64,000 bases of DNA, taken from positions 1-64,000 of the forward strand of contig JAKVBD010000002.1 of assembly GCA_022446985.1 (NCBI GenBank). Direction: 5' to 3'. The notes beneath the pieces are model-generated. The model was not told the DNA's origin. It worked only from the letters and a program-made list of their open reading frames with translations, and searched no databases. A program made the translations under genes and the position numbers. Numbering within the stretch: position 1 is the stretch's first letter; each line of letters begins with the position of its first letter. The DNA comes from Lentisphaerales bacterium. Its GTDB lineage: Bacteria; Verrucomicrobiota; Lentisphaeria; Lentisphaerales; Lentisphaeraceae. Of the stretch, positions 9,151 through 64,000 are shown in pieces.

Positions 9151-9763
9151 TTTCCTTCTTTAGAATCTGAATCTCTTTTTTAAGACGATTTTTAACTCGG
9201 CTGCGAAGGACAAAAACACTGTCTTCACTCATCTTTAATTCTTGGGCTATTTGTCGAGCACTTATGCCCTCCAGGCTTTTTGTAAAAACTTCCACGGCAT
9301 ATCCCGAAAAAGATTTTGAAACCTTCTCCATTGCCTTAGAAGTCAGATACCCGACCCACTCAGTCGCGATCACTTCTTCAATATCTGATTCTGATATTTT
9401 AAGATAAGCTTCCTCTGTAAGTTCAACGCTCTTGTCCCTGCCCTTTCTCTTGGACTTAGACAGATGATTTAAAATGGTATTTTTAATTAAAACACTTAAC
9501 CAGGTTCTAAATTTGGCTTTTTCTTTCTTGTATTCATAATTTGGCAAACCTCTCCATATTCTAAGAAGGATATCCTGAATAATGTCATCCATATCATTCA
9601 GTGATATCTGCGACTGATGAAGAACCATTCTTATAAAAGCTTCATAGTAACTGACAAAGTCACACCAAGCCGACTGATCGTCTGGATTCTGGGCTCGCTC
9701 AATCAAGGTTAATCTGGTATTCCAGTCTTCCTGCATAGCCTCACCATACTTTACATAGCACAC
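9137..9763 (-). CDS. ECF-type RNA polymerase sigma factor
   Basis: A 208-residue sigma-70 family protein of the extracytoplasmic-function class. Region 2 is seen as FIRMVLHQSQ followed by DMDDIIQDILLRIWRGL and KFRTWLSVLIKNTILNHL. Region 4 is a helix-turn-helix (EGISARQIAQELKMSEDS, then VFVLRSRVKNRLKKEI). The N-terminal TRLTLIERAQNPDDQSAW is characteristic of planctomycete/Lentisphaera sigma factors linked to protein kinases. No anti-sigma gene is adjacent; the next gene is a transmembrane kinase overlapping by 14 bases, probably the signal input. GGAGAG directly before the ATG at 9763 supports that start, although the Met at residue 10 is possible. Confidence 0.85.
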   Translation of the reverse strand: MCYVKYGEAMQEDWNTRLTLIERAQNPDDQSAWCDFVSYYEAFIRMVLHQSQISLNDMDDIIQDILLRIWRGLPNYEYKKEKAKFRTWLSVLIKNTILNHLSKSKRKGRDKSVELTEEAYLKISESDIEEVIATEWVGYLTSKAMEKVSKSFSGYAVEVFTKSLEGISARQIAQELKMSEDSVFVLRSRVKNRLKKEIQILKKEIEFE

Positions 9764-32840: not shown

Positions 32841-32855
32841 CGGCACCATTCCTGC
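32841..32855 (+). promoter_or_regulatory. Candidate sigma-54 promoter of the HDOD gene
   Basis: CGGCAC-CATTC-CTGC has the GG and GC dinucleotides exactly 12 bases apart, as a -24/-12 element needs. It has T-to-C changes at the first base and in TTGC. The expected start would be near 32867, 24 bases before the ATG. Confidence 0.35.
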
Positions 32856-32890
32856 GAAATTTTCTTCTACAATGAAAATTGGAGTGTCAA

Positions 32891-51232: not shown

Positions 51233-52045
51233 TTAGGCCGTCGCGTTCAAGACTTTGTTTTGCTGTTCCATCCAATAATCAATATCAATGTTCTCAAAAC
51301 CCGCAGCTTGCAACAATTCCATTGGTACCCTGTGGCAAGGGAAACCTCTCAAGTGTTCATCGATATAATCAGCTAACTGTAGAATTGCTATTTCTTTTAA
51401 GTAAACCTCTGAGACCTCATCGTGACTATGATGATACGCCACTGGCACCACGATATCCTCATCCAGCTGCCATGCTTCCATAAGCCAACTACCTACTAGA
51501 GCATGATCTACGTCCAAAATAGCTCTTTCTGCTTCATGTAAAGGCATACCCTCTTCATCAACTTTAGATTGAGCCATTTTCTCACCATTCGGGTTAAACA
51601 TTTTAAGAATAACCTGACCGATATCATGTACTAAAGCCGTGATGGTAATATTTGAACTTACCTGAATTCTTTCCTGCTTGACTATTTTGGCAATCAGAGC
51701 AGCTGTAGTAAACGAGTGATCCCATAACTTCGCATCGGCATTATTAATGGTGTCCATGACTGAAGCACTTAGAACAAGCTCTTTAATTTTTCGTACACCA
51801 AGTAGCGTTACAACCATTTCAACTGTTTCAATTTTTCTCGGAAGTGAATACAAACTTGTGTTAACGACCTTCAGCATCTTGGTTACTAAGATGGGGTCTC
51901 TCTTTATGCACTCAAAGACAGGATTAAGATCTACTTCTTCCTGACTTAACAGGCGTACCAGCTCAACAACATTTGCTGATAGAGTCGGCAAGTCCGGCAA
52001 TGATAGAATTTTTTTCTTGAGAATTATTTCTCTGGCGCTCAACAT
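51233..52045 (-). CDS. HDOD-domain protein, last gene of the signalling operon
   Basis: The frame opens at 52078, but the Met at 52045 is preferred: AGGGGG lies 6-8 bases upstream. That gives 270 residues. HDOD blocks: LSLPDLPTLSANVVELVRLL, FECIKRDPILVTKMLKVVNT, METVEMVVTLLGVRKIKELVLS-like (VEMVVTLLGVRKIKEL), ALVHDIGQVILKMFNP, and ALVGSWLMEAWQLDEDIVVP with YHHSHDE. The metal-type residues of HD hydrolases are only partly kept. It is the closing gene of a stimulus-response operon, overlapping the MotB gene region upstream in frame choice, and would be a non-catalytic output adaptor. A second HDOD gene lies at 32891. Confidence 0.88.
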   Translation of the reverse strand: MLSAREIILKKKILSLPDLPTLSANVVELVRLLSQEEVDLNPVFECIKRDPILVTKMLKVVNTSLYSLPRKIETVEMVVTLLGVRKIKELVLSASVMDTINNADAKLWDHSFTTAALIAKIVKQERIQVSSNITITALVHDIGQVILKMFNPNGEKMAQSKVDEEGMPLHEAERAILDVDHALVGSWLMEAWQLDEDIVVPVAYHHSHDEVSEVYLKEIAILQLADYIDEHLRGFPCHRVPMELLQAAGFENIDIDYWMEQQNKVLNATA

Positions 52046-52055
52046 AGTAATCCCC

Positions 52056-52859
52056 CTATCTCTCTGATTCTTGATCACTGTCTTTCAACAGCTCACTTAT
52101 ACTTACATTTTTGACATTCAAAGCTTCCATAAAGATGATCTTTACTCGGCTAAATGATTGGTTTCTGAATTTCATTTCTTCATTTGTTAAAACACTTGTA
52201 CCAACTGAAAATCGACTATTTTCTATACCAAATCTATCATTTAGAACATCGGCTAATTTCATATTCCTTTCAAGAGCTGTCACCCAGGCATCTCCTAAAT
52301 TTGTACCAACCATGCCTTCCGGATTTAGATAAGCCATGATTCTTATTTCATTCTGAATATTTATGGCAACGTTAGCTACTTCCTGTACAAGTTTTTGACC
52401 ATTAAATGTCAAATTCTTAGTATCGCCCTCAAACATATCCTCAATGGAAACCTCAATCGCAATTCCTTGATCAAGCTTATTAACTTGCAGTGGATACTTA
52501 AAACCTACATCACTCAGACTCTCGGACATGTCTTTGAACTTTTTCTGAATACTATTACTGCTCAGACGGATAGTCGATGGGTTGGAAGGGTTTTTTACCT
52601 TTGATTGATCAGAATCTAAATTATTGTCATTGAAAGCAGACTCTTCGCGTTGAAGAACATTGTGACTTTCGATAAAACTAAATGCCCCTTTCATAACACC
52701 GATTACATCCATCAAACGGGACTTGGATGTCGTGGAAAACGTCAACAAAAGAACAAAGAATGTCAACAGAAGTGACATACAATCCCCCATGGTCATCATC
52801 CATTCAGGACAGGTCAACTCTTCTGGTGCTGACTTTCCTTCCTCTTCCTCGTCTTCCAT
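52056..52859 (-). CDS. motB: MotB-like flagellar motor protein
   Basis: 267 residues. A single N-terminal membrane helix CPEWMMTMGDCMSLLLTFFV carries Asp26, which by alignment is the proton-conducting Asp of MotB. A basic segment after the helix (SKSRLMDVIG) resembles the plug. The C-terminal half is an OmpA/MotB peptidoglycan-binding domain (NEIRIMAYLNPEGMVGTNLG, ALERNMKLADVLNDRFGI). A MotA gene is not next to it, which is unusual. It sits in a signalling operon between a hybrid kinase and an HDOD gene; its start codon shares one base with the hybrid kinase stop. Confidence 0.82.
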   Translation of the reverse strand: MEDEEEEGKSAPEELTCPEWMMTMGDCMSLLLTFFVLLLTFSTTSKSRLMDVIGVMKGAFSFIESHNVLQREESAFNDNNLDSDQSKVKNPSNPSTIRLSSNSIQKKFKDMSESLSDVGFKYPLQVNKLDQGIAIEVSIEDMFEGDTKNLTFNGQKLVQEVANVAINIQNEIRIMAYLNPEGMVGTNLGDAWVTALERNMKLADVLNDRFGIENSRFSVGTSVLTNEEMKFRNQSFSRVKIIFMEALNVKNVSISELLKDSDQESER

Positions 52860-54382
52860 TAATCAACCTGTAAAGGGTTTAAAGTAATTTCAAAATAAAA
52901 GCGTGATCCTTTGCCTGATTCACTTTCAACTTTTAACTCTCCATTCATTAACCGCACAATTCGTGCCGAAATCGACAAACCCAAACCTGTTCCGCCTCTT
53001 TCTCTAGCGGTTGAATCTTTCTCTTGTCTAAAGGCTGTAAATATTTCTTCTTGCTTTTCTTTATCAATCCCCGGACCTGTATCGATTATTTCAAAAAGGT
53101 ATCGATTATTTCCAAGCCCCTTACACCCCACTTTTACAGAGCCTTCACCAGTAAACTTTAATGCATTAGAAAGTAGATTTATCAGCACTTGCTGTAAGCG
53201 AAGAGAATCTCCCGCAACAGGAGGCAAGTCGTCTGATACAACCATTTCCAGCTCTACCCCTTCGCGGCGGTTTCCTTCACAAAGCACTAAAGCATCTGAA
53301 ATAGTTTGAGATATATCAAAAAGTTGACTTTCTATCTGCAGTGAGCCTGCTTCCAGCCTCGACAAATCAAGTGTATTATTGATCAGTTTCATTAAGTTTT
53401 CACAACTCATTTTTACCGAACCTAAGAAATCAGTCTGCATTTCATTCAGACCACTGCTGTCCAGTAACTCCAAAAAGCCAGATAAACTATTCATCGGAGT
53501 TCTGATTTCATGGGAAAATGTTGCTAAAAACTCAGCTTTGTGACTGGCAGCTTCTTCTGCCTTTTGTCTAGCTTTTTCTATTTCATGCTGTGCCTGGCGC
53601 TGCAAAGTCACATCTCTAAAGTACCAAATTCGCCCAAAAGAATTTTCCTGGCTATCCTTCATCGGAGTCGAATAAAGCTCGTAAAACTCGCCACTCTTAA
53701 GTTTAAGATCTTCATGCTTGCGATCGACTGGATTCATAATCGCTGCGACATTCATAATCGACGTTAGGAACTTCGATCTCTCAATAAGTTGCATTGACAC
53801 TCTATCAAACAAATCATTTGAAGACATGCCTTCTTGAAACTCTGCATCTTTCCATAATTGATAGAATCTATGATTCATAGAAATAACCGAACCATTATCG
53901 TCAACGACAATCACTCCATCCAAAGACAATTCATAAACTGCAGATAATATGGCATTTTGATAATTAATTTCTTTTCTGGCTGCTGTTAGTTCTTTCTCTA
54001 GGCCAAGATCAGTCAGTGTTTTTTTAACAGTCGGTGCGAGGACATCTAAAAACGCCTTATCTTTTACCAGATAATCCCGGGCCCCTTCCTTCATCATATT
54101 AACCGCAATCATTTCTGATCCGACACCCGTACAGACAATAAAAGGAACTTCACACTTTAAAGACTTTATGTTTGCAATGATCGCAGCGGCATCAAAATCA
54201 CTTAAATTATAATCTAAAAGCATAAGATCGGCCTGAAAACCAGATTTTAGATAATCAAGTAAAGCGCCTCCAGAAGCGATTCCCTCTACCTCATAACCTT
54301 CACGCTCTAAACGCCTGCACAACAGCTGATTAACTGCAGCGTCATCCTCTACAACAAGTATTTTATACTTTGCATCATTCAT
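52859..54382 (-). CDS. Hybrid receiver-PAS histidine kinase
   Basis: The frame opens at 54409, but the ATG at 54382 overlaps the preceding stop as ATGA and starts the canonical MNDAKYKILVVEDD, 507 residues. Receiver at 5-120, with phosphoacceptor D57 (LMLLDYNL). A PAS-like sensor covers about 135-260 (YELSLDGVIVVDDNGSVISM). HisKA contains ATFSHEIRTPMNSLSGFL, and HATPase ends with DTGPGIDKEKQEEIF and GGTGLGLSISARIVRLMNGE. No membrane helix, so it is cytosolic. An N-terminal receiver lets the upstream kinase or receiver feed into it. Confidence 0.9.
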   Translation of the reverse strand: MNDAKYKILVVEDDAAVNQLLCRRLEREGYEVEGIASGGALLDYLKSGFQADLMLLDYNLSDFDAAAIIANIKSLKCEVPFIVCTGVGSEMIAVNMMKEGARDYLVKDKAFLDVLAPTVKKTLTDLGLEKELTAARKEINYQNAILSAVYELSLDGVIVVDDNGSVISMNHRFYQLWKDAEFQEGMSSNDLFDRVSMQLIERSKFLTSIMNVAAIMNPVDRKHEDLKLKSGEFYELYSTPMKDSQENSFGRIWYFRDVTLQRQAQHEIEKARQKAEEAASHKAEFLATFSHEIRTPMNSLSGFLELLDSSGLNEMQTDFLGSVKMSCENLMKLINNTLDLSRLEAGSLQIESQLFDISQTISDALVLCEGNRREGVELEMVVSDDLPPVAGDSLRLQQVLINLLSNALKFTGEGSVKVGCKGLGNNRYLFEIIDTGPGIDKEKQEEIFTAFRQEKDSTARERGGTGLGLSISARIVRLMNGELKVESESGKGSRFYFEITLNPLQVD

Positions 54383-54819
54383 TTTTGTGGCACCTGTGGT
54401 AAAATACAAACATTGGCAAAGCTGGCTATCTCGCGTACTGTCGACATAAAGGCTTTATAGTCAACTGGTTTTTTTACATAAAAATTACATCCCAGTTCAT
54501 AACATTCTTTAACTTCTTCTGGATTATCTGTCGTCGTCAGCATCACAACTGGCAAAACTTTTAAAATAGTATCCTCTTTAATTATCCTAAGAGTCTCCAT
54601 ACCATTAAAGACTGGCATATTTATATCCAATAGCATAAAAACCCGGTGAATATTTGCCTTAGCTTCGCCTCGTAAATAATCTAAAGCTTCCTGGCCATTT
54701 TTAGCCCATTGAATATGCTTGACGCCTGCACGCTTCAAATTCATCTGAATTAAATTTGCCGCAGCTTCGTCGTCTTCAGTTAATAAAATTAAAAAATCGT
54801 TATCCATCACTTTCTCCAA
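54379..54819 (-). CDS. Single-domain response regulator (Rcp1-like)
   Basis: 146 residues consisting of a receiver only. The acidic pocket is E15-D16-D17 and the phosphoacceptor D65 (FMLLDINMPVFNG), with T-T-T-D at the switch and KKPVD for the conserved lysine. The ALDYLRG and VKKPVDY runs match Rcp1-type regulators that pair with phytochrome-like or KaiC-type kinases. The start at 54819 or Met5 at 54807 both overlap the previous gene. It probably shuttles phosphate between the two kinases on either side. Confidence 0.9.
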   Translation of the reverse strand: MEKVMDNDFLILLTEDDEAAANLIQMNLKRAGVKHIQWAKNGQEALDYLRGEAKANIHRVFMLLDINMPVFNGMETLRIIKEDTILKVLPVVMLTTTDNPEEVKECYELGCNFYVKKPVDYKAFMSTVREIASFANVCILPQVPQK

Positions 54820-56419
54820 CCGACGCCGTCTTTTGAACTTTAGGGAGTATTACTGTAAAGCAACTACCCTCACCAAGGGTAGAACTGACCTCAAGCTTTC
54901 CACCGTGTCGTTCTACTATTCGGTTCGCAATTGTTAAACCTAAACCTTCTCCATTCGCGTCACTGTTACTGACCCTATAAAAAGTTTTGTAGATATTTTT
55001 TAGATTCTCTTCCGATATCCCCAAGCCATTATCCTTTATATCAAAACACAAGATCTCTCCCTCGTTTCGACATGAAACCTTAATCTCGCAATCTACTTTT
55101 GGGTTGCGATACTTTATGGCATTGACAATAAGGTTAGTGAACACCTGCTCGATCTTATCTTTATCGGCTTCACAACCTTCAAGCTTCTCCACACTGATTT
55201 GTGCATTGGCACTCTGAGCCTGAAAACTTAAACCATCGACGATCTGCCTTAACAATTCATCCATATTCACTTCGGCAAACTTGAAATCTTCCAGCCCTAC
55301 TCGTGAAATCCTTAAAAGCCCTTGGATCATTGTATCCATTTTATTTGAGCCCTTCAAAATAAAGTCTACAGAACTCGGGATATCCTGTTTAATGATATCC
55401 CTCAACTTCTCTGAATTCTCAATATCGACGACACTCTCCTTGAGCTCATCAAGCAGCATTTCTGCGAGGTATTGTAATTCTTGGCTAAATCCTTGAATCC
55501 CTATAAGCGGCGTTCTTAAATCATGCGAAGCTGCATAAAGAATTTGCTCCAATTCTTCATTTTTACGGGATAATTGTTCATTTGCCTTATGAATTTCTAT
55601 ATTACTTTTCTCAACTTCCACTTCTAGCTTTTCTGTGGACTGTCTGGCCTGCGTTACCTGTTCCTTACTCAGCATGCTTCTATTTCGCAAAGCAATTTCC
55701 ATATCCTCGAAAGCTAAATGTAAATCGTTTGTTTCTTCCAAAAGGCATTTCGATTCAGGGATCTGGCTGTCTGCTCCTTCTGTAATCGATTTAGCAACAT
55801 TAACCAGAGAATCGATGTCAACTTCAACACCTTTAAAGAGCTGTCTGGAAATCATTAACAAGACTAAAAGTACAGGAACATTCAATAATACTGAGAGTAG
55901 GAAACAAGATTGAATTACAAACTCTGAAGTTTCATTTTCACTGATTACCGACTCAAGAATACTCGACACAATGGATTGTCTTGTGTAAAAAACTTTTTTC
56001 TCAAGCATCAATGCTTCTTCTGCTGTAGAATAGTCACCAGTCTGAATTTTAGACGTAACATCTTGAAAGTTTTCAAGGCGCCTGATTTCATCATTGACCA
56101 ATGACTGAGATAATAAACCCTGCTCAACATTTTCTCTGCCCCAATCACTCACCTCTTCTTTTAGAGAAAGAATTTCTTCGCGAATCTGCCCAAGATATTG
56201 AGTCGACTGGTTCTCAATAGACTCAACCAATCTCTTGTAAATACTATTCTGCTCTTTGACCAGTCTCATAAATTGGTTAACATTATCATTTGCTTGCAAA
56301 AGCTTCGAATTATTGCGCAGGTGCAAGCCATACAACAACAGCATTTGAATAGCAAACAGCACTGCTAGTAAGCTGAAAACCAGTCTTAATTGTTTATATT
56401 GTCCTCTAACGCTTCTCAT
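54800..56419 (-). CDS. Membrane sensor histidine kinase
   Basis: 539 residues. One membrane helix at about 14-35 and another near 168-190 (SCFLLSVLLNVPVLLVLLMI) bracket a helical outer sensor domain of about 130 residues. A HAMP-like and long coiled-coil linker leads to HisKA with ILYAASHDLRTPLIGIQGFS and HATPase with IVNAIKYRNPK, DNGLGISEENLKN and GEGLGLTIANRIVERHGG. The group with DLRTPL is common among Rcp1-associated kinases. It overlaps the PhnD-like gene upstream and the receiver gene downstream, so all three should be co-translated. Confidence 0.9.
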   Translation of the reverse strand: MRSVRGQYKQLRLVFSLLAVLFAIQMLLLYGLHLRNNSKLLQANDNVNQFMRLVKEQNSIYKRLVESIENQSTQYLGQIREEILSLKEEVSDWGRENVEQGLLSQSLVNDEIRRLENFQDVTSKIQTGDYSTAEEALMLEKKVFYTRQSIVSSILESVISENETSEFVIQSCFLLSVLLNVPVLLVLLMISRQLFKGVEVDIDSLVNVAKSITEGADSQIPESKCLLEETNDLHLAFEDMEIALRNRSMLSKEQVTQARQSTEKLEVEVEKSNIEIHKANEQLSRKNEELEQILYAASHDLRTPLIGIQGFSQELQYLAEMLLDELKESVVDIENSEKLRDIIKQDIPSSVDFILKGSNKMDTMIQGLLRISRVGLEDFKFAEVNMDELLRQIVDGLSFQAQSANAQISVEKLEGCEADKDKIEQVFTNLIVNAIKYRNPKVDCEIKVSCRNEGEILCFDIKDNGLGISEENLKNIYKTFYRVSNSDANGEGLGLTIANRIVERHGGKLEVSSTLGEGSCFTVILPKVQKTASVGESDG

Positions 56420-57360
56420 TTACCGCTGAATCCATTCACTATTTCTTTATTGTAAGTAAAGCTCTTACCACTGATCCGAAAGCTCCAGTCTTTGAGAGTG
56501 ACCAATGACTCATCGAAAGGTTTCCAGTATTCCCCCAGGTCATTTTTACCTTTAAACAGTTGCTGTGAATAACTTTGTAACTCTGGAGATAAATTACTTC
56601 TCATGACCACAACCTTGCTGGGCAGTTGCTCCGAATACCATATTACCTTGAATGCTGCTCTCTGCTCTTCGTTATACATTCTTTTAAAATCAGATTCCAG
56701 AATGAGCACCAGATCTGTAGCTTTCGATGTCAAAAGCTTCATAGCGTAATCTACAGTCATCGCTACACTCACTTTGGAAAACCATTTATTGATATCTTTT
56801 AATTTATAATGAAGAAACTTTTCGGATACTACCCTCTCTACTTTGCCACTCACTCCAGTCAGCATTAAACGCAGCCCCTTAGTCTGCATCAAAAACTCAG
56901 GGACTTTTTTATGCCCCAGCAACAATAACCTTTCCCAGGCGATTTCATTGTCTTCATCTTTGAGATATGCTAAAGGTACAGCCAGCTTATTTTTAACCAG
57001 GTAATCTGCTGCTAAAAAATCCGTACAAACAACATCATAAACGTTGGAACTTATACCATGAATAGCCTCCAGCCCATGAGACAGATCGTAAAGGCCATGG
57101 TCAATCTCTGCTGACTTCATTGAAATCAACTGCTTATTCAAGTCTTTAGTAGAAGTCGCCTCGATACCAACTCTCAGGTACTGCTCTTTTTCCTTTAAAA
57201 CTGATTTTTGCTTCTCAGGCATAAAAATAAACAACGCCATAAAAGCCATCACTAACTCTGTAAAAACAAACAGAATAAGACTGGTAATGATGAGACGTAG
57301 ACAAATGCTACGAAGATTTTCCGCGGTGGATTTCAATAGTGAATACTCCACATTGATCAA
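56416..57360 (-). CDS. Membrane-anchored PhnD-like (phosphonate-binding-type) domain protein
   Basis: About 314 residues. A membrane helix at about 18-47 (LIITSLILFVFTELVMAFMA) is followed by an outer domain that resembles a PhnD/ABC solute-binding fold: SSNVYDVVCTDFLAADYLVK, VAMTVDYAMKLLTSKATDLV and AAFKVIWYSEQLPSKVVVMR. There is no transport permease, so it more likely serves as a sensing subunit for the kinase coded next (ATGA overlap). The start is uncertain: 57360 is TTG and 57351 GTG, both inside the CheX gene. Family assignment is tentative. Confidence 0.55.
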   Translation of the reverse strand: MINVEYSLLKSTAENLRSICLRLIITSLILFVFTELVMAFMALFIFMPEKQKSVLKEKEQYLRVGIEATSTKDLNKQLISMKSAEIDHGLYDLSHGLEAIHGISSNVYDVVCTDFLAADYLVKNKLAVPLAYLKDEDNEIAWERLLLLGHKKVPEFLMQTKGLRLMLTGVSGKVERVVSEKFLHYKLKDINKWFSKVSVAMTVDYAMKLLTSKATDLVLILESDFKRMYNEEQRAAFKVIWYSEQLPSKVVVMRSNLSPELQSYSQQLFKGKNDLGEYWKPFDESLVTLKDWSFRISGKSFTYNKEIVNGFSGK

Positions 57361-57778
57361 CTAAGTAACTCACTGAGAGTCCTATTGACTTAGCTGATTT
57401 ATTGGCTGAAACATCATCCCCGACCAAAGCTAACGGTGGGGTAAATTGAAGCTTCATTTCCTGTTCTTTGCCAGAAGCACCGCCATTTACGATACCTGCA
57501 AACTCTTTCATACCATCCAGAACATCCGAATTAAGCGCTGGAGGCTGCTCACCTAGATACTTTTCATAAAGTCTAAGGACCGCGGCAGCTGAACTTTTCA
57601 CAATCATACTGCCGCTAACATTCCCCTTGAAGCCAGAAATAAGAAGAAACTCAATTCCCTCTTTATCTCCCTTCTCTGAAACCTCTAAGCGTTCGACAGA
57701 CAAACCCGTCATAGAAGCCACAGACTCATGGAAGGAATCTGTAAAAGCTTTAAAGACTCTATAATCTTCATCTGTCAT
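57308..57778 (-). CDS. CheX-family protein with altered active site
   Basis: 156 residues, CheX/CheC-type fold: GFKGNVSGSMIV, a helix, then LDGMKEFAGIVNGGAS, and LGLP-like QFTPPLAL. In active CheX-type phosphatases the helix carries ExxN; here E92 is kept but the Asn position is Gly95. It is therefore probably catalytically weak or dead and may compete for or bind a phosphorylated receiver. It follows the intact CheX gene by 22 bases and is the second gene of the signalling operon. Confidence 0.72.
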   Translation of the reverse strand: MTDEDYRVFKAFTDSFHESVASMTGLSVERLEVSEKGDKEGIEFLLISGFKGNVSGSMIVKSSAAAVLRLYEKYLGEQPPALNSDVLDGMKEFAGIVNGGASGKEQEMKLQFTPPLALVGDDVSANKSAKSIGLSVSYLVDQCGVFTIEIHRGKSS

Positions 57779-57800
57779 TTGTTCACTCTAAAATTAAGAG

Positions 57801-58265
57801 CTAGACCTCTTCCATAGTTATTGCCAATTCGAAAAGGCCACAACCTTCAATTTTCATAGGAATCACGATCCAGGGAGAATTCAAATCGGCAAACATCTTA
57901 TGGTCTTTTCCTGCTAAAACCGTCGGTAAACCAAGACCGATCTTAAAGTCTGCCAGCTTTGCCGCAGCAGCTCCGGCGATGATATTTAGAATTTCACCAA
58001 TACCATCTAATACATCGGCATCGACTTCAGGAATTTCTTTATCTAGAAACATGCCAACGGTACTACAGGCCATCTCTTCCTTCATACCAATAAGCATAGC
58101 GCCTCTAACTTTACCCGTAAGGCCTATAACCCCCATTACGTCAGAAATTGGAAAAACTCCCGTTTTCACTTCAAGCTTACCAGCTCGAACAGGAGTCACT
58201 CCCAACATTGTTTTATAAGTATCAACACATGCTTCAATACATGGATTAATGTGTTCACTCTTCAT
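57801..58265 (-). CDS. CheX-like CheY-P phosphatase
   Basis: 154 residues. The CheX family active-site motif is complete (LDGIGEILNIIAGAA, E91 and N94). GLTGKVRGAMLIGM and GLGLPTVLAG are other family blocks. CheX proteins dephosphorylate CheY-type receivers, so the substrate may be one of the receivers encoded downstream. GGAG before the ATG at 58265 and a -24/-12-like element 48 bases upstream mark this as the first gene of the minus-strand operon. Confidence 0.8.
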   Translation of the reverse strand: MKSEHINPCIEACVDTYKTMLGVTPVRAGKLEVKTGVFPISDVMGVIGLTGKVRGAMLIGMKEEMACSTVGMFLDKEIPEVDADVLDGIGEILNIIAGAAAAKLADFKIGLGLPTVLAGKDHKMFADLNSPWIVIPMKIEGCGLFELAITMEEV

Positions 58266-58312
58266 TTACGCTCTCCAGCTTCGTATTTATTTTCTGGTGC
58301 CTGACTGAAATC

Positions 58313-58327
58313 GCAAGTAGTATACCA
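58313..58327 (-). promoter_or_regulatory. Candidate sigma-54 promoter, minus-strand operon
   Basis: On the minus strand, TGGTAT-ACTAC-TTGC has GG and GC exactly 12 bases apart and a perfect TTGC. The -24 box is weaker (TGGTAT for TGGCAC). The start would be near 58301, 36 bases before the CheX start. Confidence 0.4.
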
Positions 58328-58441
58328 CAAAAAATAAACCGGAAAAAATATCTTATTCTTTAACAAAAACTGGCGAAAGACTTTTTCCGCTCAGGCTCAA
58401 AGATGAGTTATTTTCACTCAAAACATGTGTCTAAAAATTGC

Positions 58442-58456
58442 TGGCACTTTATTTGC
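58442..58456 (+). promoter_or_regulatory. Sigma-54 promoter, plus-strand operon
   Basis: TGGCAC-TTTAT-TTGC matches the -24/-12 consensus TGGCACG-N4-TTGC at all but one of the fixed positions, with GG and GC 12 bases apart and a preceding C. Transcription would start near 58468, 30 bases before the LysM gene ATG. Confidence 0.75.
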
Positions 58457-58497
58457 GGCGTCTCATACCAAAGAAATTATGCTGAGGATTTTCCAAC

Positions 58498-59253
58498 ATG
58501 TTCAGATCTATATTAACTACACTTTTATGTATGGGAGCGGCCTACTCTGAAACGACTGTTCCAGCGCCTGAGATCATTGATGAGAAAGAGCTAAAAAAAC
58601 TAGAAGTACCTACTTACCTCTTAAGCTCTACGAAGATCAGCAAAGAAACTGAATCTCTATTAATTGAACATGACCTTATACTCGACCATCTTGTAAAAGC
58701 TGACGAAACCGTCAAAGAACTCGTGGCTCAGGCGCATAAATGGGAGCAAGAACAAAACATTTTTAAAAAAGGTGAAATAGATGCCCTCAAAGACAAAGCT
58801 GAGCGTCTAGCTACGAGCAACCTGCTCAGAAGAAAAATTATCACCCAGCTGCAACAGGTATCTTCCTACATAAATCAGCTTAAAACTAATCGTGATCTAC
58901 TCCGTGAGCAAAGAATTAAAGACGAAAAGCGCTGGGCTATGGAAGCATATAAGCTCAAGCTCAAAAAGCTAGAAGAAGAGAAGAAGCTTCTTGAACAGCA
59001 GTTGAAAATTGCAGCACCAAGTGGCAAAAAACCGACAGACGGCAAAACTCTTACTGAAGAAAATGTCCAATATGAAACTGTCAAAAAAGATCGTACACTA
59101 CAGGACATTGCCTGGCAATATTACAACGATAATGAAAAATGGAAAACCATTTATAACTATCCAGGGAATAAAGAAAAAATTAGCGAAGAATCACCTTCTG
59201 CTCTTATTCCGGCCGGCACAACCTTAACTATCCCCAACCTTGACGAAGAATAA
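58498..59253 (+). CDS. Exported LysM-domain protein with coiled coil
   Basis: 251 residues. Signal peptide (MFRSILTTLLCMGAAYS), a long charged coiled coil (about 75-185, e.g. KKLEEEKKLLEQQLKI), and a C-terminal LysM-type domain (VKKDRTLQDIAWQYYNDNEK, then WKTIYNYPGNKEKI, ending PAGTTLTIPN). LysM binds peptidoglycan; the spacing is like XkdP/YgaU LysM units. GAGG precedes the ATG at a spacing of 10. It is the first gene of the plus-strand operon, 2 bases before the receiver gene. Confidence 0.78.
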   Translation: MFRSILTTLLCMGAAYSETTVPAPEIIDEKELKKLEVPTYLLSSTKISKETESLLIEHDLILDHLVKADETVKELVAQAHKWEQEQNIFKKGEIDALKDKAERLATSNLLRRKIITQLQQVSSYINQLKTNRDLLREQRIKDEKRWAMEAYKLKLKKLEEEKKLLEQQLKIAAPSGKKPTDGKTLTEENVQYETVKKDRTLQDIAWQYYNDNEKWKTIYNYPGNKEKISEESPSALIPAGTTLTIPNLDEE

Positions 59254-59255
59254 CT

Positions 59256-59720
59256 ATGAATCCGATTAAAGGCAGAATTTTAATATTAGATGATGATGTT
59301 CTAGTCGCTGTCAATTACAAAGACAGACTGGAAAGTCAAGGTTTTAACTGCCGATTGACTCATTCTGTCAAAGATGCCTATCACTTTATAAAAAACAATG
59401 CCTTTGATCTCGTCTTATGTGACCATGACTTACCTGATGGAAAGGGGCTTGATCTAATTAAAAAAATTCAGACAGAAAGTAAAATGATCCCCTTCATCTA
59501 TTTCTCTGCTGCCACTCAAAGAGTCCTTAAACAAGCAGCTGCAAACCCCTTGGTTATGAAAGTCCTGACAAAACCCGTTTCAGAAGATGCCATAATTCGA
59601 AGCGTCGTCGATCAACACATCACACCTCCTACAGATCACAAACGCTTCATTGACCCTATTGAAAGAAAACTAATTCTGGAGATAAATCGCGATGAAAGAA
59701 GCAAAGAAAATAAGCGATAA
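59256..59720 (+). CDS. Single-domain response regulator
   Basis: 154 residues. A receiver with acidic residues D12-D13-D14, phosphoacceptor D56 (DLVLCDHDLPDGKG), a Ser/Ala switch (YFSAATQ) and lysine in LTKPVS. The 35-residue tail is charged and helical and has no known DNA-binding motif. It lies between the LysM and TPR genes and overlaps the latter by 29 bases. It is a plausible target of the CheX-like phosphatase coded divergently. Confidence 0.88.
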   Translation: MNPIKGRILILDDDVLVAVNYKDRLESQGFNCRLTHSVKDAYHFIKNNAFDLVLCDHDLPDGKGLDLIKKIQTESKMIPFIYFSAATQRVLKQAAANPLVMKVLTKPVSEDAIIRSVVDQHITPPTDHKRFIDPIERKLILEINRDERSKENKR

Positions 59721-62022
59721 ACAACCTTCCAACAAGCTCATTAAAATTGGCTCTATCATTATCGCCGCAGCCATCTCTGCAGTATCTGTACCAGCTATCA
59801 AACAAGCTGCGACTCAACTCGGCGAGCAACGGGATAAAGAGAAAAAAGAGATACTAAAAAAGTCCGACAAGTATATATCCACCTGCTTGGATATGGCTGA
59901 AGAGGGCAACTTCCACATCGCTAAAAGAAGCTTGGAGAAGCTCAATCCAAATGAATTAAACCCGGATCTGAGAGCGAAATGGTTCACCACTATGACGACC
60001 ATATTTCAAATGGAAGCCGAAGTCTACAAAGACAGAAAACAGTTATTGATCATGCAGGCCCTTACCTATGCCCAGCGAGGCATACTTGCTGGAGCCAAGC
60101 AAAGTGTCGTTGACAACTTAAACCAAATGAAAGCTCAACTCTACCTCATGAGTGAACAATGGGCACCTGCTGCTGACATACTACAAGATCTTCAAAGTCG
60201 GACACGATCTCCTAAAGAGCGTTGGAAATACCGCCTGACGATTGCCAGTTGTCACAGTAAGCTGAGACAATACCAAGATGCCTTGCGCCTGCTCGACTCT
60301 GTGATCGATGAAACAGATGAACTATCAACCTGGGCTACTGCCTTGCGCCGTAAGGCAGATATTCTTTTTAGCATTTCACAAGTAGAACATAATATCTCTG
60401 AAGTTCCATTTGATCCTCAAAACAGCCTTCTAACACAGACTGTAAATTCTACCTTGAAAAATATGAATACTCTTTTAGAGGCAGAAGCGTACTACTTAGA
60501 ACTCGTCGAAAATATTCCAAGCAACGTTCATCCAGATAAAATGAAAGCCCTTGAAAAGTTACTGGAGATTTACGTAAATCGCAAACAAAGTGTCGAAGCC
60601 TATCAATATGCAAATATGCTTAAAAGAGCTGCCGGTGATCGCCCCTACTCGGCTCCAGTCTTTAAACATATGGCGCGACTGGAAATAGATAAAAATAATT
60701 TGAAACGTGCTGAAAATTACTTACTTAGACTCATAAAATCACATCCTGACAGCGAACATACCGAACCTGCTCTGATGAGTTACTATGAGCTCCTAAAAAA
60801 ACGCCAGGAATGGGCCAGAGCCTTCAACCTTGGCTACACAATCACCCAGTCTAATATCACGATAGACTCTAAAATAAAAATCATCCAGGACCTCATTCTT
60901 GGTGAACCGCTTATTTCAAATAATGACTTAACCTTACCTGGTGCCCAGATTAAAGTTAAAAAAATGCTCGAATCTATAGTCACCCAGGACCATGATCTCT
61001 TAAGTATTTTGCAATTCGCTAAAGCAAGTGACAAATTCAATCTTGGCCAATACTATGAAGCCGATAAACACTTTTCAGAATACCTGCAAACTCCAGGCTT
61101 CAATCAATTCAAGGAACAGGCACATTTTTACTATCTCCTATCCTCAGTAAATGCTGGCTTACCTCCAGTCGTACAAGCATTAAGAGCCAAACTTTACCTA
61201 AACAACACCTACAATGCCAAACGCTCACAGCAGGTGATGATTTACCTTATGTCAGCCTACTACGATATGGATTTATGGGATAAATCCATTGATGCCGCCA
61301 TGAAAGTCTTTGTCAGTGAAATTGTCCGTATGGGTGAAGAAAACGAAAACTACCAGGCCAGCGATGAATGGCTGAAAGCTGTGGCTAGAATTGGTCAAAG
61401 CTATGAAAGGCTTGGACAAAATACTAAAGCTCAATCTGTGTTCAATACCTGGGCCAAAGAATTCCGCAAAAGCCCCTACGCAGCATCGATCTATGCAGAT
61501 TGGGCTCAAATCGCCTCAGAAAAAGGTCAACACAGAGAAGCCTTAAGACGTCTAAATATAATACTGCCTTATATAAAAAGATCCGAAGACTTTCTCTTAC
61601 TGATAAGTATGAGCTGCATTCAAAAACTCAAAGTAAATGACGCCACTGCCTGGAAGGATGCCAACGTCCTGATTAAACAATTACCAAATAAAAAAGATAA
61701 ATTGGGGGCGGAAAAAGTTGCCGCTTTACTCAAAGGTATTTATATGGCAATGCTTGAAAATTCCATAGTACATAACCTCGAAAAAACTGAAGACACGTTT
61801 AATCTTGCTCTAGAAAAATACAAAAACAATCCATGGCCTTACCAACTTATAATCAAATGGTTACAAAATAACAAAAACTCTCCTAACTATAAAAAAATAA
61901 GCAAATTCTTACAAAGCTCAGTAGCTGGCCCGCTTACTGCGCTTACTGAAGGCAAACTAAGAAAAGCGATTAAAGACCAAGCTGATCTTTTAGTCGCTAT
62001 GGAAAATGAAAATGTCTTCTAA
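59692..62022 (+). CDS. Membrane-anchored TPR-repeat protein
   Basis: 776 residues. A lysine-rich N-terminus and one membrane helix (about 17-36, GSIIIAAAISAVSVPAIKQ) are followed by helical TPR repeats to the end (for instance WAPAADILQDLQSRTRSPKE, YQDALRLLDSVIDETDE, AENYLLRLIKSHPDSEHTEP, GQHREALRRLNIILPYIK). It has no enzymatic motif. TPR scaffolds of this kind assemble envelope complexes such as pili, flagella or gliding machinery. The ATG is inside the receiver gene (29-base overlap) and GGAG lies about 6 bases upstream. Confidence 0.8.
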   Translation: MKEAKKISDKQPSNKLIKIGSIIIAAAISAVSVPAIKQAATQLGEQRDKEKKEILKKSDKYISTCLDMAEEGNFHIAKRSLEKLNPNELNPDLRAKWFTTMTTIFQMEAEVYKDRKQLLIMQALTYAQRGILAGAKQSVVDNLNQMKAQLYLMSEQWAPAADILQDLQSRTRSPKERWKYRLTIASCHSKLRQYQDALRLLDSVIDETDELSTWATALRRKADILFSISQVEHNISEVPFDPQNSLLTQTVNSTLKNMNTLLEAEAYYLELVENIPSNVHPDKMKALEKLLEIYVNRKQSVEAYQYANMLKRAAGDRPYSAPVFKHMARLEIDKNNLKRAENYLLRLIKSHPDSEHTEPALMSYYELLKKRQEWARAFNLGYTITQSNITIDSKIKIIQDLILGEPLISNNDLTLPGAQIKVKKMLESIVTQDHDLLSILQFAKASDKFNLGQYYEADKHFSEYLQTPGFNQFKEQAHFYYLLSSVNAGLPPVVQALRAKLYLNNTYNAKRSQQVMIYLMSAYYDMDLWDKSIDAAMKVFVSEIVRMGEENENYQASDEWLKAVARIGQSYERLGQNTKAQSVFNTWAKEFRKSPYAASIYADWAQIASEKGQHREALRRLNIILPYIKRSEDFLLLISMSCIQKLKVNDATAWKDANVLIKQLPNKKDKLGAEKVAALLKGIYMAMLENSIVHNLEKTEDTFNLALEKYKNNPWPYQLIIKWLQNNKNSPNYKKISKFLQSSVAGPLTALTEGKLRKAIKDQADLLVAMENENVF

Positions 62023-62046: not shown

Positions 62047-62565
62047 ATGCAGACACAAAATCTCATCGAAGAACAAATCACTAACTGCCGCGAACTTTTA
62101 AAAATTTTCAAAGATGAAAGAGAAACTTATGGAGACTCAAGCTCTATAAACCTCGACCAAGTCGTCATCATGATTAAACGCAAGCAGGAAATCCTAACGA
62201 CTTTCAGCAGGCAAAAAGAAATCATGCAAGGCATTAAAGAGCATGGCCACCAAAACGAAGAAACAGAGAAAAAACTTCTAAGAGAACTTGGCGGCATCCT
62301 CGAACAACTGCTTGTAATCGATCAGGAAAATGAAGTCCTTCTTAAAAACCTTCTGCGCAAAAGACCAGTAGACACGACCAAAAGCAGTCAAACTTCATCA
62401 ATTAGTCAAACTCCTGACTTACCCTTTTGTCCAGGTAAGCGTCGTCAACCAAGGAAAGTAAAACAAACTGTATCGTCTGTTAAAAATGACGTAAAACAGG
62501 CTGACCTTTTACAAAATAAACTGAACCACTTTTCGCGCAATAAACTGCGCGCCTACGGAGCTTAA
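62047..62565 (+). CDS. Small coiled-coil protein, FlgN-like
   Basis: 172 residues. The first 110 form two long helices (NLIEEQITNCRELLKIFKDE, LDQVVIMIKRKQEILTTFSR) of the kind seen in FlgN-type flagellar chaperones, which keep hook-associated proteins unfolded before export. The C-terminus is basic and low in structure (KRRQPRKVKQTV), ending NKLRAYGA. The homology is weak by eye. The flagellar-type kinase gene follows after 10 bases, consistent with the idea. Another coiled-coil role is possible. Confidence 0.45.
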   Translation: MQTQNLIEEQITNCRELLKIFKDERETYGDSSSINLDQVVIMIKRKQEILTTFSRQKEIMQGIKEHGHQNEETEKKLLRELGGILEQLLVIDQENEVLLKNLLRKRPVDTTKSSQTSSISQTPDLPFCPGKRRQPRKVKQTVSSVKNDVKQADLLQNKLNHFSRNKLRAYGA

Positions 62566-62575
62566 AGGATCAATC

Positions 62576-63784
62576 ATGACAAGAATTCTGAAAGCTAGTG
62601 ATGATCCAAGATACGCAACTTTGCTCAATGCATTTGAGGCATTTCAGCAGCAAAGCAGCCAACTTGAAGAAAGTCATAAAAAACTAAAAGAACAACTCAA
62701 GCATTCACAAATCGACCTTGCCGAGAAGAACAAAGAGCTGGCTAAAAAAGTCACTGAAGTTCACGATATGAAAGAAAGGCTTTCAAGTATTCTCGAGTCA
62801 ATTACCGACGCTGTTTTCATGATTGACAAAAAAGGCTCCATTGTCACTGCGAACCATGCCGCTTGCAGCTTTTTTGAGAAAGATAAATTCGATGAACTGG
62901 ATAAACTCTCATTAACTGAAGTTCCAGAAATCATGAGTTTCATTGAAGCTGGTAAAAAAATCCAGGACAAAGACCTTTGTTGTAACATCCACAATGAAGA
63001 AAAAGTACTTATGCTTTCAATTTTGCCGATCAAAAAAAATCAGGCAAGATCAGTTCTCATTATTAAAGACATCACTGATTACCAACAATTAAAAGTTCGC
63101 GTCGAACGCGAAGACCGCATGACTGAACTAGGTCAGGTCGCCGCCTCAGTAGCTCATGAAATCCGCAACCCACTTGCAGCTGTAGAAGGCTTTGCCAGAC
63201 TACTCGAGCGTGATTTACCGGACAATCAAAAAAGAATGGCGGGCAAAATCGTCCAGGCGACAAGACAACTCAACTACGTAGTCACCAACCTTTTGACCTA
63301 CACAAGGGATCAGGCTATCCATCCTTTCCCTCATGACATGTCACAAGTTGTCGAAGAGGCAGCAGAACTGGTTATTCCTATGGCAGAAGACCGAGACATC
63401 GGCTTCGATATGAAACTCCAGAAGGCCGTTTCTGCACAAGTTGATGGCATTCAAATCAAACAGCTTCTACTCAATTTATTCATAAATTCTGTTCAGGCAT
63501 GCCCGGTAAAAGCCGACGGTCAAATAAATGTCGTTATGAAAAAAGTTAGAAATAAAATTTCAATTACCGTCGAAGACAATGGTTGTGGAATCCCAGCCTC
63601 AAAAGTCGCAAGACTCTTTGAACCGTTCTTCACCATGAAAGATGGCGGAATTGGACTTGGCCTGGCCATGTGTCGTCGTATTGCTGATATGCATGCCGGA
63701 AAACTCACAGTTAAAAGTACCGAGGGCAAAGGTACCTGTTTTACACTTACCTTGAACCAAAATGGAGCGCGTCAAAATGATTGA
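62576..63784 (+). CDS. PAS histidine kinase, FlrB/FleS-like
   Basis: 402 residues, cytosolic. An N-terminal coiled coil (about 20-70), a PAS domain at about 70-170 (SILESITDAVFMIDKKGSIV), then HisKA with H194 (VAASVAHEIRNPLAAVEGFA) and HATPase with LNLFINSVQACP, DNGCGIPASKVAR and GIGLGLAMCRRIADMHAG. This layout and the LGQVAA-AHEIRNPL block match the FlrB/FleS/AtoS kinases that phosphorylate sigma-54 activators. Its stop overlaps the start of a receiver gene, and a sigma-54 promoter drives the operon. Confidence 0.88.
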   Translation: MTRILKASDDPRYATLLNAFEAFQQQSSQLEESHKKLKEQLKHSQIDLAEKNKELAKKVTEVHDMKERLSSILESITDAVFMIDKKGSIVTANHAACSFFEKDKFDELDKLSLTEVPEIMSFIEAGKKIQDKDLCCNIHNEEKVLMLSILPIKKNQARSVLIIKDITDYQQLKVRVEREDRMTELGQVAASVAHEIRNPLAAVEGFARLLERDLPDNQKRMAGKIVQATRQLNYVVTNLLTYTRDQAIHPFPHDMSQVVEEAAELVIPMAEDRDIGFDMKLQKAVSAQVDGIQIKQLLLNLFINSVQACPVKADGQINVVMKKVRNKISITVEDNGCGIPASKVARLFEPFFTMKDGGIGLGLAMCRRIADMHAGKLTVKSTEGKGTCFTLTLNQNGARQND

Positions 63785-64000
63785 TAGAATTCTCGTAGCC
63801 GATGATGAATTCATGATCAGGGAAGTCCTGGAAGAAACAATCCGCAGGCACAACATAGAAGTCATTACCGCCTCAAATGGTGATGAAGCTAAAAAAATGC
63901 TTGAAAAACACGATTGCCAAATGGCATTTGTCGACCTTAAAATGGGTAAAACGACCGGCATGGATGTTCTCGAACACTGTCGTGCCAAAAGTCCTTCTAC
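63777..64000 (+). CDS. Response regulator, FlrC/NtrC-type likely (partial)
   Basis: Starts ATG inside the kinase stop region (8-base overlap) and runs off the window after 74 codons. A receiver is seen: ILVADDEFMIREVLEE, phosphoacceptor D53 (AFVDLKMGKTTGMD). The central AAA domain that would prove a sigma-54 activator lies outside the window, so NtrC-type is inference from the FlrB-like kinase. Confidence 0.75.
   Translation, partial: MIDRILVADDEFMIREVLEETIRRHNIEVITASNGDEAKKMLEKHDCQMAFVDLKMGKTTGMDVLEHCRAKSPS

Follow-up and report, generated by a model that had tools for sequence, protein, structure and literature searches.

A predicted divergent pair of sigma-54 promoters between two flagellar and chemotaxis operons in a Lentisphaerales bacterium

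The sigma-54 flagellar programme has been described mainly in Proteobacteria and Campylobacterota. A polar flagellar programme has been described for the kinase–activator pairs FlrBC, FleSR and FlgSR (PMC7064773), and transcription of flrBC in Vibrio cholerae and of fleSR in Pseudomonas aeruginosa requires FlrA or FleQ, respectively (PMC7064773). In Caulobacter, FlbD occurs without a cognate kinase (PMC7064773). An rpoN gene located within the flagellar cluster is known from Xanthomonas (PMC7280030) and Rhodobacter (PMC7277832). For Lentisphaerota and Verrucomicrobia, titles and abstracts in the open literature yielded no description of a sigma-54 flagellar programme, which is weak evidence of novelty.

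The locus analyzed here lies in a 64,000-nucleotide stretch (the window) of a contig from an uncultured member of the Lentisphaeraceae (Lentisphaerales, phylum Lentisphaerota). Its sequence resembles a sigma-54 flagellar programme of the FlrBC/FlgSR type that includes a flagellar RpoN. Like FlrBC of V. cholerae and FleSR of P. aeruginosa, it has an NtrC-family kinase–activator pair together with sigma-54 (PMC7064773); FlhF, FlhG, FliA and a FlgM-like gene are present, and sigma-54-like sites precede the hook and rod genes flgD and flgF. Unlike FlrBC and FleSR, the pair shares an operon with LysM, TPR, MptE/PseD-like, FliS and FlgM-like genes behind a sigma-54 site of its own, and a non-exhaustive look through the genome identified no FlrA/FleQ-like master. 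Campylobacter jejuni FlgSR also combines a kinase–activator pair and sigma-54 with no known master regulator (PMC7064773), but here a sigma-54 site lies before the pair's operon and before flhB, and the fliF operon has a weak match only (10.4). As with rpoN2 of Xanthomonas and Rhodobacter sphaeroides, an extra rpoN is found inside the flagellar cluster (PMC7280030, PMC7277832), although in another phylum and in a different setting: it follows fliA, usually beside fliW, and the two RpoNs of the genome keep an identical RpoN box (ARRTVAKYR). The activator resembles Caulobacter FlbD as an NtrC-family flagellar activator (354 bits against the NCBIfam FlbD model, below the cut-off of 750), whereas here the kinase gene overlaps the activator gene.

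The two divergent operons are separated by a gap of 232 bp that holds both promoter elements (Table 1). The first-pass annotation had read this gap as a divergent sigma-54 pair, and that reading is supported: both elements are present at the coordinates and on the strands it gave, and the 40–48 bases it reported to the first ATG of each operon were measured as 41 nt between the last C of TGGCACTTTATTTGC and the ATG at 58498 on the plus strand and as 47 nt between TGGTATACTACTTGC and the ATG at 58265 on the minus strand. The plus element, described as near consensus, has zero mismatches to TGGCAYN5TTGC (GG and GC with N10 between them, within TGGCAC-N5-TTGC) and is the sole perfect match in the window. 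The minus element, for which the right GG-GC spacing had been claimed, does have the correct core and spacing (GG-N10-GC) and is among the few one-mismatch matches in the window. An Rfam search of positions 57000–60000 gave no match.

Table 1. Predicted promoter elements and genes of the two divergent operons (window coordinates)
Feature	Position	Strand	Remark
Predicted sigma-54 -24/-12 element TGGCACTTTATTTGC	58442..58456	+	no mismatch; transcription start predicted ~58468
Probable sigma-54 element TGGTATACTACTTGC	58327..58313	-	GG-N10-GC core; transcription start predicted ~58301
Exported coiled-coil protein, C-terminal LysM-like region; first plus-operon gene	58498..59253	+	NCBIfam LysM weak, E 0.0017, below cut-off
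Single-domain response regulator	59256..59720	+	Pfam Response_reg
TPR protein, 776 aa	59692..62022	+	orthologues in G002, G015, G342
Conserved small protein	62047..62565	+	conserved in G015, G049, G342
FlrB/FlgS-type PAS histidine kinase	62576..63784	+	gene overlaps the activator gene
NtrC-family activator (FlrC/FlgR/FlbD-like), N-terminal part in window	63762..64000	+	full gene G000:C112:63762-65174
CheX-type phosphatase, first minus-operon gene	57801..58265	-	PF13690 E 6.8e-21
Second CheX-like protein	57308..57778	-	minus-operon gene 2
PhnD-like substrate-binding protein	56416..57360	-	minus-operon gene 3
Histidine kinase	54800..56419	-	minus-operon gene 4
Response regulator receiver	54379..54819	-	minus-operon gene 5
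Receiver-PAS-histidine kinase	52859..54409	-	minus-operon gene 6
MotB-like protein	52056..52859	-	MotB_plug
HDOD protein, probable last minus-operon gene	51233..52078	-	no terminator found past this gene

Both operons are flagellar/chemotaxis operons, a point absent from the first-pass annotation, which also had the plus operon end with the kinase and a receiver. In fact, the genes 3' of the activator gene encode an unknown protein, then an MptE-like protein that also matches PseD (below cut-off), then FliS, a pair of small proteins, one of 212 aa and finally a FlgM-like protein (a sub-threshold match), with an intrinsic terminator hairpin ~26 nt past the last of these. The operon is thus ~11 kb long and extends to ~69.45 kb of the contig. 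Because it reaches through FliS and the FlgM-like gene to a terminator, it is taken as a flagellar regulatory operon, and because no intergenic gap exceeds ~45 bp, a single transcript is likely, as predicted from gene spacing. Blocks of it recur in four other genomes (G002, G015, G049 and G342). The conserved small protein has no credible Pfam match and is perhaps a FlgN-like chaperone, a guess from sequence appearance. Two candidate internal promoters were rejected: a sigma-54-like TGGCAC-N5-ATGC within the MptE-like gene of several genomes is interpreted as coding constraint (protein motif GTSHA in the copy studied here), and the matches in the TPR gene of this genome and of G002 do not align with each other and differ in the peptide encoded. 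The minus operon comprises eight genes for chemotaxis and signalling, with CheX first and a MotB-like protein among the products; its probable last gene encodes the HDOD protein, and no terminator was found past that gene.

The first-pass annotation had asked whether 63777 encodes an AAA activator with GAFTGA and would have counted the lack of an AAA domain against its reading; that check was passed. Read beyond the end of the window, the ORF that starts at 63762 (or alternatively at 63777) encodes a protein of 470 aa with a receiver, an AAA+ domain, an AAA lid and a Fis-type HTH, matching Response_reg, Sigma54_activat (PF00158, 240.7 bits) and HTH_8, and GAFTGA is present. Against curated families all matches stay under the cut-off (AtoC 463/714, FlbD 354/750 and FlgR 310/750 bits), and NCBIfam gives no equivalog name for either kinase or activator. 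Because the best curated matches fall short in this way, the name "FlrC-like" is taken from the neighbouring genes only.

The reading that we consider probable is that two sigma-54 promoters of a flagellar regulon diverge from the gap, with an 11-kb plus operon, an eight-gene minus operon, positive feedback and a flagellar RpoN. The plus promoter would drive the operon from the LysM gene through the FlgM-like gene, and the minus promoter would drive the CheX-led operon with its MotB-like protein. The kinase, sensing flagellar assembly, would phosphorylate the activator, which would then open sigma-54 polymerase at both gap promoters and at other flagellar promoters; the sigma-54 in use would probably be the flagellar-cluster RpoN. 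By acting at its own promoter the activator would create positive feedback; we infer such self-activation from the fact that the activator gene belongs to the operon preceded by the plus promoter. Another activator may act at the gap promoters, given the 16 strong sigma-54 activation domains in the genome. These 16 domains also favour a different hierarchy, possible although on balance unlikely, in which both promoters depend on sigma-54 but are activated by an FlrA/FleQ-like master encoded elsewhere, with no self-activation and with the kinase–activator pair subordinate to it by one tier, the arrangement of Vibrio and Pseudomonas, where flrBC and fleSR transcription requires the master (PMC7064773). 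However, no FleQ-like protein was identified, with the other activators viewed in less detail, and the activator of the plus operon is the only one found among flagellar genes.

How far the two elements can be distinguished from chance was assessed in the whole genome (G000, a draft of 6.34 Mb in 271 contigs with 5.36% contamination) and in relatives (60 in a first round; 388 genomes of the phylum in a second). TGGCACN5TTGC occurs 12 times in G000 versus once for the reversed control pattern, whereas the looser TGGYAYN5TTGC occurs 51 versus 21 times (2.4-fold), so that, judged by the pattern alone, only about one in two minus-type matches would be real. For sites ≤160 bp upstream, comparison with 1000 dinucleotide shuffles gave p = 0.001 (plus) and p = 0.002 (minus) with a hand-made matrix of 15 columns, in which GG is fixed and the frequencies follow the published consensus and do not derive from a data set; its scores are relative only, as thresholds varied between scans from 9 to 13 and background base frequencies also varied slightly.

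Among the 60 relatives, FliS was found in G002, G015, G024 and G049, besides the copy of G000, and CheX homologues were found in the same four, with a paralogue in G001; the second draw added five genomes with CheX (G342, G374, G159, G368 and G371), all with upstream regions new to the analysis, and a separate CheX query against contigs found no relative. The divergent gene order is also that of G342, a member of another family, with CheX on one side and LysM, receiver, TPR, small protein, FlrB, FlrC, unknown, MptE and FliS on the other, and in G002 the two operons are on separate contigs, each with its own site. The plus-type site recurs before the LysM gene clearly in G002 (AGGCACGGCATTTGC, score 14.9, 21 nt before a listed ATG that is perhaps not the true start) and in G342 (TGGCATATATACTGC, 43 nt before the likely ATG at 9314), and weakly in G015 (score 10.1 at 111 nt, p 0.018). 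In G342 the mechanical ORF begins at 9278, 7 nt from the site, and 9314 was used instead because a signal peptide follows it. This amounts to three of three LysM genes outside G000 at a background level of 5.3% (396 windows; product 1.5e-4), with a denominator set after the data were seen and excluding a LysM-like match in G024 of doubtful orthology, which has no upstream site. Match quality, position, genome-wide excess over the control and recurrence before the LysM gene support the plus-strand element, which is almost certainly a real sigma-54 promoter as predicted.

Upstream of CheX, sites were found in G002 (17.1), G015 (12.4) and G024 (9.8), and before two CheX paralogues, in G000 (C217, 10.0) and G001 (C96, 11.1); a third paralogue (G002 C1) has no upstream site, nor do the orthologues of G342, G049, G374 and G159. 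Three of seven orthologues outside G000 thus carry a site at a background level of 6.6% (396 windows; binomial p 0.008), again with a denominator set after the data were seen and omitting G368 and G371, whose more distant CheX (38–41% identity) has no site before it and whose inclusion gives 3/9. Because the site precedes CheX in three relatives and is absent in four, the minus promoter is less certain: it is a probable sigma-54 promoter with weaker support than the plus one, likely in G000 yet not general among relatives. It is rather unlikely that only the plus promoter depends on sigma-54, with the minus match being a sigma-70 extended -10 (TG-G-TATACT) or chance and a housekeeping sigma transcribing the CheX operon. 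The minus-strand sequence does fit an extended -10 (TGGTATACT), the looser sigma-54 pattern has just the 2.4-fold excess over control, and CheX of G342 lacks a site despite the same divergent arrangement, as do those of G049, G374 and G159. Conversely, what is common to CheX of G002, G015 and G024 and the two paralogues (TGGCATTGCATTTGC, TGGTATAAACATTGC, AGGCATAATAACTGC, TGGTACCAATGCTGC and TGGTATCATTGCTGC, all 41–57 nt from the start codon) is GG-N10-GC and not TATAAT, and scanning for complete sigma-70 promoters gave no match at the minus site, although an extended -10 needs no -35. That both matches are chance similarities is very improbable, for although the consensus with up to two mismatches is no commoner in the window than in shuffles (87 found versus 97 expected), the perfect match, the position, the sites that recur in further families and the setting within a flagellar regulon argue against it.

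Sigma-54-like sites also occur elsewhere in the genome. Of the 12 perfect TGGCACN5TTGC sites, seven are followed ~33–51 nt downstream by a start codon in frame; the genes concerned are the LysM gene, flgD, a fliW, those of an RGP-family protein and an unnamed exported protein, and two that are rhomboid-like and asparagine-synthase-like. Of the remaining five, four fall inside genes and one is located 132 nt upstream of an rpoN, within the gene that precedes it. Sigma-54-like sites precede flgD, motA, flgF and two fliW genes, and flhB has one 39 nt upstream of a start codon in frame; for flhB, flgF, the RGP gene and a fliW the second in-frame start was taken as the start codon. Flagellar operon leaders score above others (Mann–Whitney p 8e-6, 11 versus 171), a result biased in its own favour in that several of these leaders were first spotted through their sites. 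Thirteen had been labelled beforehand, flhB and flgK were lost by the gap rule, and low-scoring leaders were kept in the test (fliF 10.4; two flagellins 0.3 and -0.8). No sigma-28 site was detected upstream of the flagellins. When ten flagellar sigma-54 sites were compared for palindromes or words in common, AT-rich words were all that emerged, with no enhancer motif. The 8-bp inverted repeat CGGAAAAA/TTTTTCCG (58340-58347, 58382-58389) was rejected as a shared enhancer, its occurrence being about the chance expectation in 232 bp, and the base after TTGC was rejected as a mark of one RpoN, G being frequent there in both flagellar and non-flagellar sites.

Several further features were observed. 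On the plus strand of the window, CGGCACCATTCCTGC (32841-32855, score 12.5 with the hand-made matrix) lies 24 nt upstream of an HDOD-like gene that starts at 32879. Genes resembling fliW are found at three places in G000, one of them a run of FliW-like, flagellin, FlgB-like, FlgC-like and FliE-like genes (C195, L187:9140-11976) where TGGCACGGTCACTGC is found 45 nt upstream of a start codon in frame. Two fliW genes (L114:7439 and L187:11976) have in their upstream regions a candidate common inverted repeat (CTAGGAA...TTCCT type), located ~130 nt upstream of the sigma-54 site. In G002 (L099, L150) the translated motif LSTFQPFNLSTFQ appears in several ORFs, a sign of a genome-wide DNA repeat.

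The extra RpoN in the flagellar cluster of G000 is also absent from the first-pass annotation. The cluster (G000:C57, ~57.7-68.7 kb; L104) encodes FliP, FliR, FlhB, FlhA, FlhF, FlhG, FliA, an FHA-domain protein, RpoN and FliW; for the FHA protein there is a further match, to a Yop-YscD-like domain of type III secretion. Two full RpoN genes were found in G000, G001, G002, G015, G024, G049 and G051, and a second fragment in G018, whereas most other first-round genomes have one and three have none. The copies outside the FliS-positive set include G018:C210:1-270 and those on C241 and C261 of G051, the latter very divergent. In the first six of the genomes with two, the extra RpoN lies inside the flagellar cluster after fliA and adjoins fliW in five, no FliW match adjoining that of G049, and these RpoNs form one clade (support 100/99; G024 was read as two overlapping ORFs, with the longer one alone in the tree). 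The five second-round genomes with CheX have the same RpoN type adjoining FliW and within the same clade in a quicker tree with no bootstraps, so that the clade-specific RpoN is found in 11 of 11 checked genomes with a CheX homologue and beside fliW in 10. A "second" RpoN is not universal, because in the incomplete assemblies of G159, G342, G368 and G371 the clade-type copy is the only full RpoN found. The single RpoN of G008 groups next to the clade, though no FliS was found there.

The finding extends the sigma-54 flagellar programme to Lentisphaerota, and the class-wide flagellar RpoN is the more interesting by-product. The flagellar trait is patchy in the family, because another genus of it (G003–G005) gave no FliS match. 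We propose, tentatively and as a possibility that is still doubtful, that flagellated Lentisphaeria share an inherited switch: a flagella-specific sigma-54 paralogue encoded beside FliW in the flagellar cluster and a kinase–activator pair driving its own 11-kb operon without an FlrA/FleQ-type master. If this is true, flagellum building would be a self-sustaining decision, and should the feedback and the dedicated RpoN both prove real, the class would be a natural test of a flagellar hierarchy without a known master regulator.
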